The translations under genes and the position numbers were made by a program. This document shows positions 12,531 to 46,864 of a stretch of DNA of 46,864 nucleotides, piece after piece; the first letter of the stretch is position 1; the number at the start of each line of letters is the position of its first letter. The stretch is from positions 1 to 46,864 of the forward strand of contig SLDA01000537.1 of NCBI GenBank assembly GCA_007125545.1. Reading direction: 5' to 3'. The stretch is from Thermoflexales bacterium (GTDB taxonomy: Bacteria > Chloroflexota > Anaerolineae > B4-G1 > SLSP01). The notes beneath the pieces are model-generated. The model made no database searches, was not told the origin of the DNA, and saw nothing but the letters and a program-made list of their open reading frames with translations.

Positions 12531-13310
12531 TTATGCCAGCCATCCCTGACTGCGCCAGAGCAGGAAAAGGCCAAACGCCAACGTCACTCCGACCGCGAAG
12601 AGCCAGTCTCGGGGCGCCATCTCAACACCCCGCCATGTCGTTCGACGCTCTGAAGCTTCGAGTCCCCGCGCCGCCAAGGCCAGTGTAAGGTCATCGCTCA
12701 TCCGCAGTGTACTAATCAAGACCGCAACCAGGATAGGAATGTAGTCTCTAGTGCGCTTGAGGACATTACCCTCAGCCACCCAACCACGGGCGGCTTGCGC
12801 GTCTCTCACCGTTTGAAAAAGGCTCTGAACCGCCGGTAGAAAGCGCAGCGCCAAGCTTATTGTGAGTCCCCAGGTATAGGGGACGCCCAGGGAGACAATG
12901 CCCTGAATCAAAGCCCGGTGTTCGGTCGTGAATAGCAACCCAGCAATGATAAGCGCGACGGTGAGCGTGCGTAGCACGATAGTTATCGCGTCTAGAACGC
13001 CCCCTGTGGTCAGTCGTAGCGGGCCGAGCTCAAAAAGCTCTTGACCCGACGGGCGCGCAAAAGGCTGCAGGAGAAGGATCAATATGATGAGGACACCCAT
13101 ATCACGCCAGAAACGGAGAAGTCTGCGCCCCGGCACACCGGCGAGGTACAGGGCCACGTGAATCGCAAGCAGGAAGACCGCTGCTGAGACCGGGCCCGGC
13201 AACAAGAACGCGAACACCACGGCCAGGGTAACCGCCCACAGTTTGACCCGAGGATCGAGCCGGTGAAGGAGCGAGGAACCGGGCGCGTAGATATCAAAGA
13301 CGACAGTCAT
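12531..13310 (-). CDS. ecfT: ECF transporter transmembrane subunit T
   Basis: The energy-coupling-factor T subunit joins the substrate-binding S subunit to the two ATPases. The 259-residue protein starts with the family's YAPGSSLLHRLDPRVKLW block, has about five membrane segments, and carries two A-A-R-G motifs in the C-terminal half (QAARGWVAEG and LAARGLEAS). These mark the coupling helices that contact the ATPases. Its ATG overlaps the stop of the fused ATPase gene (ATGA at 13307-13310), so translation is coupled. Last gene of the S - AA - T operon. Confidence 0.93.
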   Translation of the reverse strand: MTVVFDIYAPGSSLLHRLDPRVKLWAVTLAVVFAFLLPGPVSAAVFLLAIHVALYLAGVPGRRLLRFWRDMGVLIILILLLQPFARPSGQELFELGPLRLTTGGVLDAITIVLRTLTVALIIAGLLFTTEHRALIQGIVSLGVPYTWGLTISLALRFLPAVQSLFQTVRDAQAARGWVAEGNVLKRTRDYIPILVAVLISTLRMSDDLTLALAARGLEASERRTTWRGVEMAPRDWLFAVGVTLAFGLFLLWRSQGWLA

Positions 13311-14788
13311 ACCACGCCTGCTCGAGCCTCTAACGACGTCAACAGCGCTTCGGGATCTCCATCGGCCTGGACGCTACCCTGGTCCAGGACGACGACGCGA
13401 TCGGCACAGCGCGCCACATCAATCTCATGGGTTACCAGTACAATCGTGACGTCCTTGCGGCGGAGAGCCGCCAGCCACTGCATAAGTCTGGCAATGCCCC
13501 ACCCATCCAGACCCACAGTCGGCTCATCGAGGATCACCACGGGCGTCTCCAGGATCGCCAGCGCTGCCAGCGAGACCGTTCTTTGTAGCCCGTATCCGAG
13601 AAGGGCAGGAGGAAGGTGGGCGATATCATGGAGTCCGAAATCGCTCAGAGTCCTTTCCAGGCGTGCCGGGATATCGGACAGCCCCAGCCGTACCGGCCCA
13701 TAGGCTAACTCCTCGCGCACCGTGGCCGAAAACAGCTGCTGCTCAGGCCGTTGAAATAAGTATCCTACCTCGCGCGCCAGAACACCAGTCGGGCGCTGAA
13801 GGGTCGCCTGCCCGCGCACTCGCACCGTGCCCACTGTCGGACGCAGCAAACCATTGAAGTGGCGTACGAGCGTACTCTTACCTGCACCATTGCGTCCTAT
13901 TACCGCGACAAACTGCCCTGTGGGAATCGACAAATCAATTCCATGCAAGACTTGGGTTCCGTCGGGATAATCAAAATGCAGGTTTTCCACTTCCAGAGCG
14001 GGTGCGCGTTCCTCTCCGGATCCCCTCGAACTCAGATCGGGCCACATCTCGCGAGGACAGGTCACACCTAACTGGACCAAACGGGGCGCCATGGCGTCGA
14101 ACTTGGCCGTCGATGTAGGGGCCTCCATCCGTCCGTCGACCAGCAGAGCTATGTCGGACGCCTCCCGGGCAACCTCGGGACGAAGCGTCAACAGCAGCAG
14201 CGTCGTGCCGGTCCTGTTCAGCGCCCCAACCGCCTCCATCACCTCGACACGTCCCTCAGGATCGAGGCCCCCGAGCGGTTCATCGAGCAGCAGAACTCGA
14301 GGTTGCATCGCCCAGACAGCAGCGAGCGCGAGGCGCTTCTGCTGACCACCGGAGAGCGCCCATGGCGCACGTCCTGCCGCGCCGGCAAGGTCGAAGCGAG
14401 CGAGCGCCTCAGTCACGCGCGGTCCAATTTCACGGGGCGGCACGCTTAAAGCTTCGAGCCCCCATGCCACCTCGTCCTCCACTGAGGTTGTGAACAATTG
14501 CGTGGCCGCGTCCTGAAAAAGCAAGCCGACCGCGCCAGGTGCGGGAGGATGTGAGGTCACATCGACACCTGCAACGTCTACCATTCCGGTTACGCTGCCG
14601 CCTGTATATCGTGGAGCGAGTCCAGCGAGCACATAAGCCAAGGTGCTTTTCCCGGCGCCGCTCGCGCCCATAATAGCCAGGGAGCCGCCTTCAAGCAGAT
14701 TAAAGGAGCAAGCTTTGAGCGCCTGAAAAGGCTCTTCTCCAGGCAACCGCGGCGCGTAGGTGAACGTGACATCACGTATAGTCAGCAT
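13307..14788 (-). CDS. Fused ECF transporter ATPase (two ABC domains), asymmetric sites
   Basis: A 493-residue fusion of the two ECF ATPases. NBD1: Walker A GASGAGKST (41-49), Q-loop FQD (Q92), signature LSGGQ (145-149), Walker B LLLDEP (E170), but Leu202 where the switch His should be (LLTLRPEV). NBD2: Walker A GRNGAGKST (298-306), Q346, Walker B VILDEP (E422), switch His present (VTHE, H454), but a degenerate signature LGYGL (397-401) instead of LSGGQ. In the closed pair the site made of NBD2 Walker A plus NBD1 signature is complete, while the other lacks both signature and His. Start ATG 14788; an upstream in-frame start at 14809 adds seven residues. Follows the S gene after a terminator-like hairpin. 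Confidence 0.93.
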   Translation of the reverse strand: MLTIRDVTFTYAPRLPGEEPFQALKACSFNLLEGGSLAIMGASGAGKSTLAYVLAGLAPRYTGGSVTGMVDVAGVDVTSHPPAPGAVGLLFQDAATQLFTTSVEDEVAWGLEALSVPPREIGPRVTEALARFDLAGAAGRAPWALSGGQQKRLALAAVWAMQPRVLLLDEPLGGLDPEGRVEVMEAVGALNRTGTTLLLLTLRPEVAREASDIALLVDGRMEAPTSTAKFDAMAPRLVQLGVTCPREMWPDLSSRGSGEERAPALEVENLHFDYPDGTQVLHGIDLSIPTGQFVAVIGRNGAGKSTLVRHFNGLLRPTVGTVRVRGQATLQRPTGVLAREVGYLFQRPEQQLFSATVREELAYGPVRLGLSDIPARLERTLSDFGLHDIAHLPPALLGYGLQRTVSLAALAILETPVVILDEPTVGLDGWGIARLMQWLAALRRKDVTIVLVTHEIDVARCADRVVVLDQGSVQADGDPEALLTSLEARAGVV

Positions 14789-14800
14789 TGGTATTCGACT

Positions 14801-14834
14801 CAAAAACAAGCGGAGGAGTTCTTAACTCCTCCGC
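14801..14834 (-). terminator. Hairpin/terminator between ECF S and ATPase genes
   Basis: On the minus strand an 11-bp perfect stem GCGGAGGAGTT / AACTCCTCCGC (arms at 14810-14820 and 14824-14834, 3-base loop) is followed by TTGTTTTTG. It lies between the S-subunit stop and the ATPase start. As the three genes belong to one transporter, it probably ends only part of the transcripts, making more S than A and T. Confidence 0.75.
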
Positions 14835-14855: not shown

Positions 14856-15374
14856 TCAGAGAGCTCGTTCGCGGTAGGTTCCGATAGGTGGATAGGCGTG
14901 ACGCACGGCCCAGTAGAGCGGCAGACCGACCACGCTGCCGCTGAGAGCCTGAACAATATTCGCGGGTATGTAGGTCCACGAGGCGGCAACCCCAATCAAG
15001 GGGATGCCCGCCAGGAAGTAACCTCCGGCGATGATCACAATGCTGGCAAGTGTAGCGAGGACCGCCTTGACCCAGGTTAACCTCTGACCGATGATCAGCC
15101 CCAGCGCGGCTCCCTGCACACCATGGACGATAAACGAGAAAACAGCCCACTGCGCATAGCCGAGTGCGATATCCGCAAACGCCGTCCCAAGTCCACCCGC
15201 TACCATAGCAACCCAGGGGCCAAATGCCGCAGCTGCAAACGTGATTCCCACGTCACCCAGATGTACAAATCCACCCGGACCCAGGGGAATGACCGGAATG
15301 TATGTGAGCACGAAGATCAACGCTGCCATCAGCGCTGTCAGCGTAATCCGGCGGATATTAATCGGCTTATTCAA
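14856..15374 (-). CDS. ECF transporter substrate-binding subunit S
   Basis: A 172-residue membrane protein with about six hydrophobic helices, expected to bind a vitamin or other micronutrient and deliver it to the ECF module encoded downstream. The N-terminal helix carries the alanine-rich TLTALMAALIFVL stretch typical of S subunits (contact with EcfT). The FVHLGDVGITFAAAAFGPW and GGLGTAFADIALGYAQW blocks resemble the group that includes HMP/pyridoxine-type S components rather than BioY. A TTG at 15374 has an ideal Shine-Dalgarno site (GGAAGGAG, eight bases away) and is preferred; a GTG at 15392 is also in frame but would sit before that site. Substrate not determinable. Confidence 0.85.
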   Translation of the reverse strand: MNKPINIRRITLTALMAALIFVLTYIPVIPLGPGGFVHLGDVGITFAAAAFGPWVAMVAGGLGTAFADIALGYAQWAVFSFIVHGVQGAALGLIIGQRLTWVKAVLATLASIVIIAGGYFLAGIPLIGVAASWTYIPANIVQALSGSVVGLPLYWAVRHAYPPIGTYRERAL

Positions 15375-15399
15375 CCCAGCTTCTCCTTCCACGATCGAA

Positions 15400-36702: not shown

Positions 36703-36776
36703 TGGGCGATACAGGACTTGAACCTGCGACCTCCACGATGTCAACGTGGCGCTCTAGCCGGCTGAGCTAACCGCCC
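36703..36776 (-). tRNA. tRNA-Val (GAC)
   Basis: A 74-base cloverleaf: acceptor GGGCGGT paired with ATCGCCC, D-arm GCTCAGCCGGC, anticodon stem CCACG/CGTGG with loop TTGACAT (anticodon GAC), TPsiC arm with GGTTCGAGTCC, discriminator A. The CCA end is not encoded. It has its own promoter and terminator. Confidence 0.96.
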
Positions 36777-46583: not shown

Positions 46584-46666
46584 TGGGGCGGGTGGGAGTC
46601 GAACCCACACGCTCTTTCGAGCAGAGGATTTTAAGTCCACGGCGTCTGCCATTCCGCCACCGCCCC
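46584..46666 (-). tRNA. tRNA-Leu (TAA)
   Basis: An 83-base class II tRNA: acceptor GGGGCGG/CCGCCCC, D-arm, anticodon loop CTTAAAA (anticodon TAA), long variable arm (GCTCGAAAGAGC), TPsiC arm with GGTTCGACTCC, discriminator A. CCA is not encoded. The anticodon stem has one T-T mismatch. Confidence 0.95.
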
Positions 46667-46680
46667 GCTATCTTGCCTGG

Positions 46681-46711
46681 ACAACAAACGGGCATCCCAG
46701 AAAGATGCCCG
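46681..46711 (-). terminator. Hairpin between tRNA-Cys and tRNA-Leu
   Basis: Minus strand CGGGCATC / GATGCCCG (arms 46689-46696 and 46704-46711), 8-bp stem with 7-base loop followed by TTTGTTGT. It follows tRNA-Cys and precedes tRNA-Leu on that strand, so it may be a terminator or a processing hairpin. Confidence 0.6.
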
Positions 46712-46733
46712 ATGGTGTCTATGTGGAAGAGAG

Positions 46734-46805
46734 AGGCGACGGTCGGAATCGAACCGACGAATAAGGCTTTTGCAGAGCCCTGCCTTACCACTTGGCTACG
46801 TCGCC
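46734..46805 (-). tRNA. tRNA-Cys (GCA)
   Basis: A 72-base tRNA: acceptor GGCGACG/CGTCGCC, anticodon stem GGGCT/AGCCT with loop CTGCAAA (anticodon GCA), TPsiC arm CGGTTCGATTCCG, discriminator U, which is a Cys identity element. CCA not encoded. Confidence 0.96.
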
Positions 46806-46808
46806 GAG

Positions 46809-46864
46809 AGCGGGCTAAGGGATTCGAACCCTTGACCTTCTCCTTGGCAAGGAGACATTCTACC
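46809..46864 (-). tRNA. tRNA-Gly (GCC), partial
   Basis: The 3' part of a tRNA whose 5' end lies beyond the window: anticodon stem TCTCC/GGAGA with loop TTGCCAA (anticodon GCC), TPsiC arm AGGGTTCGAATCCCT, acceptor strand AGCCCGC and discriminator U. Only three bases separate it from tRNA-Cys, so the two are likely one transcript. Confidence 0.93.

Follow-up and report, generated by a model that had tools for sequence, protein, structure and literature searches.

Introduction

ATP-binding cassette (ABC) ATPases pair two nucleotide-binding domains (NBDs) in a head-to-tail sandwich, in which each composite ATP site combines the Walker A and B motifs and the Q- and H-loops of one domain with the signature of the other (PMC7756269). 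Transporters with one degenerate composite site are well established among exporters (PMC7756269), and the degenerate sites of the importer ATPases RbsA and NupO were noted in a paper that leaves out energy-coupling factor (ECF) transporters (PMC11466899). For the ECF family, structures of ECF-FolT2 showed that binding of ATP closes the two ATPases, by which EcfT is deformed and the S component expelled, and a turnover structure retained ATP in EcfA, with ADP in EcfA' (PMC10368641). In the operon of that transporter, EcfA is the first gene and EcfA' the second (PMC4820897). In the open-access papers searched, we found no ECF transporter described as having a degenerate ATP site. Here, we describe a fused ECF ATPase (positions 13307 to 14788, minus strand) encoded on contig SLDA01000537.1 of a Thermoflexales bacterium (assembly GCA_007125545.1; the whole 46,864-nucleotide stretch analyzed is called the window), in which two motif changes fall on one composite ATP site, probably impairing hydrolysis there, and the other site is intact.

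Results

The ATPase gene encodes 493 residues from an ATG at 14788, from which all residue numbers are counted; starting instead at the in-frame TTG at 14809 would give 500 residues, 7 more. The plus strand of the same interval is rich in stop codons, and the open reading frame lies on the minus strand, as do all motifs given below. PF00005 was matched twice, corresponding to two ABC ATPase domains, and TIGR04520/TIGR04521 scored above their cut-offs over the whole protein, with the two domains summed. NBD1 groups with EcfA1 and NBD2 with EcfA2. The preliminary description had recognized a fused ECF ATPase with both changes on a single composite site; these matches and groupings bear out the identity, and its residue numbers and motif states (Leu202; LGYGL at 397 to 401) proved exact when re-read from the minus-strand translation.

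In NBD1, the Walker A motif (GASGAGKST, residues 41 to 49; 14642 to 14668), the signature (LSGGQ, residues 145 to 149; 14342 to 14356), and the Walker B motif (LLLDEP, with Asp169-Glu170; 14276 to 14293) are intact, and a leucine (Leu202, codon CTT; 14183 to 14185) stands at the position of the switch histidine. In NBD2, the Walker A motif (GRNGAGKST, residues 298 to 306; 13871 to 13897), the Walker B motif (ILDEP, with Asp421-Glu422; 13520 to 13534), and the switch histidine (His454, codon CAT; 13427 to 13429) are intact, and LGYGL (residues 397 to 401; 13586 to 13600) replaces the LSGGQ signature. Leu202 and LGYGL fall on the same composite site, since a head-to-tail sandwich pairs the Walker motifs and H-loop of each domain with its partner's signature. 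Site 1, formed by the NBD1 Walker motifs and the NBD2 LGYGL, thus keeps the residues that hold ATP and has lost the switch histidine and a normal signature. Site 2, formed by the NBD2 Walker motifs, Gln, and His454 with the NBD1 LSGGQ, is intact. Changes in catalytic motifs are therefore confined to one composite site, as in degenerate-site transporters; the catalytic glutamate of Walker B, which such sites have usually lost or changed, is still present at site 1 (Glu170).

An AlphaFold2 (AF2) model of the ATPase was built from 28 sequences (predicted local distance difference test, 91.8; predicted template modelling [TM] score, 0.91). In the model, Leu202 is the second residue past a strand (196 to 200), exactly as His454 is the second past its own (448 to 452), and in the relatives we found no consistent shift of an NBD1 histidine to a neighboring position; on these two grounds, Leu202 is not an alignment slip. 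Over its whole length, the model matched ATP-bound Mycobacterium tuberculosis DppD (TM score, 0.86) better than apo fused DppD (0.67). The model thus resembles a closed head-to-tail sandwich formed within one chain, a type of fold that sets the NBD1 Walker A across from the NBD2 signature, in agreement with the assignment of both changes to one site.

A scan of named genomes gave 27 clade relatives (41 to 61% identical; 28 sequences with the window protein) from Anaerolineae-type bacteria (Thermoflexus, Thermoflexales, Caldilineales, and Ardenticatenales). Both changes, at the NBD1 His position and in the NBD2 signature, were present in 27/27 relatives and in 16/16 full-length near-family proteins (the window protein included; its relatives there are 50 to 61% identical to it). 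Across the 28-sequence alignment, the NBD1 LSGGQQ and the NBD2 Walker A, Gln, Asp-Glu, and Thr-His were invariant, and the two altered positions were off consensus in all 28. The NBD1 His position held Leu, Phe, Pro, Ala, Gln, Lys, Asn, or Ser, whereas the NBD2 His never changed. In the near family, the NBD2 signature reads L[GSD]YGx, with a constant Tyr as its third residue. Some sister loci carried further losses, on site 1 only, namely Walker B Glu to Gln (L144, L146, and L147) and Q-loop Gln to Glu (L144 and L146); among clade members with the motif present, the NBD1 Walker A Lys was replaced only in L145 (by Arg). The ratio of nonsynonymous to synonymous substitution rates (dN/dS) among close relatives was about 0.08 to 0.12 for NBD1 and 0.04 to 0.16 for NBD2, and reading frames were open in all full-length relatives. 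Of the 27 loci, 24 have an S gene immediately upstream, and two of the other three are cut off there. Because all clade relatives share both changes, site 2 is invariant, and dN/dS is about 0.1, the site 1 changes are neither decay nor sequencing error. The alignment at positions 202 and 397 to 401 that the preliminary description had proposed thus found changes shared by the clade and not private to this protein, and its suggestion of selection rather than decay has held.

Wider sampling used two sets. The first held 132 nonredundant fused ECF ATPases, most of them found by likeness to the query and hence query-biased; an ECF filter on the NBD2 Q-helix discarded genuine ECF fusions and was replaced by dropping just five non-ECF double-NBD proteins. 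Domain 1 lacked His in 38 cases and Glu in 10, and the domain 2 signature was off SGG in 113; in domain 2, none of Lys, Gln, Glu, and His was ever lost, and a changed domain 1 signature occurred twice. Because of this bias, the pattern was re-tested on a neutral set of 91 ATPase pairs (39 of them fused, 52 unfused), taken from Chloroflexota and Bacillota loci that were anchored on an EcfT gene (PF02361). Among domains without the switch His, the signature of the partner domain was altered in 15/16 and their own in 0/16, and 0/91 pairs were altered at both sites. Domains sorted by position, domain 1 with Bacillus subtilis EcfA1 and domain 2 with EcfA2 (294/296). Losses were counted as events on a FastTree phylogeny built without the motif columns (a quick tree, with two phyla sampled), since in most cases the signature had changed before the His was lost, an order of events that inflates Fisher P values computed without regard to ancestry; a test on independent pairs had four usable pairs and no power. 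On this tree, His was lost 13 times in domain 1 and once in domain 2, with 13 of these 14 losses on the matched site; the Walker B Glu was lost 5 times and the Q-loop Gln 10 times, always in domain 1 and never in domain 2. We infer about 14 independent His losses, in fused and unfused pairs alike. The sampled pairs thus show a general rule: loss of a switch His is accompanied by a changed signature in the other domain of the pair, never in its own.

The preliminary description had also held that usual EcfA/EcfA' pairs keep both sites. This stands for the solved group II EcfA1 and EcfA2 chains, in which both sites are canonical (leaving aside chains with an engineered Glu-to-Gln change), and for 29 of the 37 sampled pairs whose D-loop is group-II-like. 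It fails for the other 54: both sites are canonical in 6 of these, the signature alone is changed in 33, and His, Glu, or Lys has been lost in 15. With only 6/54 of these fully canonical, the window protein looks like an advanced case of a common tendency among ECF motors, fused or not.

Several sampled loci depart from the window protein in degree or in side. A Bacillota fused group (L212, L214, L216, L218, L223, L224, L228, and L231) combines a natural Glu-to-Gln change in NBD1 (LDQP) and loss of the NBD1 His with an NBD2 signature of LSRGQ or LSSGQ (and an NBD2 D-loop GLN in several), and shows an independent, stronger degeneration of site 1. Four unfused, EcfT-anchored Chloroflexota pairs (L385, L334, L339, and L342) are altered at the opposite composite site, again matched between partners: the domain 1 signatures read LSMAD, MSMAA, QSMAD, or LSSAQ, the domain 2 His is lost, and the domain 2 Walker A ends in GKTR or GKTE in three and in GRST in L342. 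The genome of the window encodes further fused ECF ATPases, one with NBD1 LSAGQ and otherwise canonical motifs (L201; G000:C476:44500-51000) and one with an NBD1 Q-loop Gln-to-Glu change and NBD2 LPRGD on the same composite site (L359; G000:C608:2979-8671).

The ATPase gene lies between those of an S component (14856 to 15392, minus strand; 178 residues; HmpT/PdxU2-like; PF07155, E = 5e-28) and the transmembrane component EcfT (12531 to 13310, minus strand; 259 residues; PF02361, E = 2e-35), in the order S-AA'-T; its stop codon shares an ATGA overlap with the EcfT start codon (read directly). This gene set is an ECF importer operon, with the two CbiO/EcfA-type ATPase domains, the EcfT/CbiQ component, and the membrane S component of an ECF (type III) ABC importer. 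The S, A, and T genes stand in one operon in the window and in its relatives alike, an arrangement that would suit a group I (dedicated) system. No riboswitch was found near the operon or its relatives.

The S component matched that of ECF-HmpT (4hzu_S, E = 3e-13). Six ligand-pocket residues have been discussed for HmpT (PMC4860826), and the window S component keeps five (Trp76, His84, Tyr120, Asn140, and Gln143), with Asp in place of Glu41. A MocR-type regulator above the NCBIfam cut-off for PdxR lies directly upstream of the S gene in four sister loci (L141, L144, L146, and L147). Because of the likeness to HmpT/PdxU2 and the four PdxR relatives, vitamin B6 is the likely cargo. Elsewhere, the window holds a run of three tRNA genes at its end (46584 to 46864, minus strand; the last one cut off) and a fourth tRNA gene at 36703 to 36776.

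Discussion

We conclude that the window protein probably serves a dedicated ECF importer of the group I type, with vitamin B6 as the most likely cargo, and that, of the two ATP sites in this fused ATPase, one is probably competent for hydrolysis and the other impaired. In the cycle that we propose, binding of ATP at both sites would close the sandwich, closure would deform EcfT and expel the S component, and hydrolysis at site 2 would reopen the sandwich, ready for another loaded S component. Site 1 would mainly hold ATP, as a wedge with slow exchange or slow hydrolysis. The order of NBD1 and NBD2 parallels that of the EcfA and EcfA' genes, and the site given up lies on the EcfA1-type Walker A side, which is the ATP-retaining side in the ECF-FolT2 turnover structure.

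Several points weigh against this conclusion. Site 1 keeps the Walker A Lys, Gln, and Walker B Glu170, so that slow hydrolysis there is possible, and a Gly-to-aromatic change in the signature may by itself be tolerated. In ECF-FolT2, mutating either catalytic Glu (Glu to Gln) abolished both ATPase activity and transport (PMC10368641); group II transporters thus do not as a rule run on one site. A single structure underlies the link to the ATP-retaining site, and the window has no PdxR relative, the cargo being deduced from sister loci and S-component residues.

An ordinary ECF motor in which both sites hydrolyze ATP, Leu202 and LGYGL being tolerated with compensating changes nearby, is unlikely. 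It would account for the intact catalytic residues of NBD1 just listed, for the many ECF ATPases that pair an LSFGQ-type signature with an intact His (so that the signature can vary), and for the constant Tyr of the near-family signature, which may have a role. It sits poorly with an NBD1 His position that is unconstrained over the clade while the NBD2 His is fixed, and with sister loci that have also lost the catalytic Glu at the same site.

It is improbable that the asymmetry is a by-product of fusion without mechanistic meaning, the tethered domains having diverged since one site suffices. A degenerate site is also present in two fused ATPases of B. subtilis, RbsA and NupO (PMC11466899), and 28 of the 33 sampled fused pairs without a group-II-like D-loop are altered, but unfused non-group-II pairs are equally so (20/21 altered, 7 of them by loss of His, Glu, or Lys), and the few unfused Chloroflexota pairs with the opposite site degenerate are partner-matched. 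That the operon is on its way out under relaxed selection, with the site 1 changes as early steps, is hardly credible: the diverse residues at the NBD1 His position would suit an unconstrained residue, but frames are open, the operon is conserved, dN/dS is low in both domains, and site 2 with the NBD1 LSGGQ is invariant.

A wider reading, offered tentatively as possible rather than probable, is that ECF importers can run on one hydrolysis per cycle, and that evolution has repeatedly disarmed one site, nearly always the EcfA1-type one, leaving an ATP-binding wedge. Were that so, each of the two ATP sites in an ECF motor would have an inherent role of its own, including in motors whose sites both appear canonical. 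The asymmetry is present in unfused ECF pairs as well and is thus more than a consequence of ATPase fusion (a point raised in PMC11466899), and a family in which one site has been disarmed naturally, repeatedly, and mostly on the same side offers material for a direct test.

The group II EcfA1-EcfA2-EcfT transporters (Lactobacillus delbrueckii ECF-FolT2 and Lactobacillus brevis ECF-HmpT, 4HZU) resemble the window system in component set, NBD grouping, and, for HmpT, the S component. They differ in that the solved EcfA1/EcfA2 have two canonical sites and depend on both catalytic Glu residues (PMC10368641), whereas the window ATPase is fused, has its S gene adjacent, and has one site altered. 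B. subtilis YkoEDC (group I) likewise joins a fused double ATPase, YkoD, to S and T components of its own (PMC5037267), but its cargo is thiamine related. CFTR, TAP, MRP1, and other degenerate-site ABC proteins (PMC7756269) are exporters or, in one case, a channel, with another membrane fold. Such exporters are usually without the catalytic Glu at the altered site, whereas the window protein keeps Glu170. In CFTR, the altered signature also lies in NBD2 (LSHGH). RbsA and NupO (type II importers; PMC11466899) share with the window protein an import function, fused NBDs, and one degenerate site; they belong to a different family, their second Walker A has no Lys, and they use solute-binding proteins. 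M. tuberculosis DppD (8WDB) is the best whole-length fold match, the model being like its ATP-bound closed state, but it is the ATPase of a dipeptide importer and about 25% identical to the window protein.
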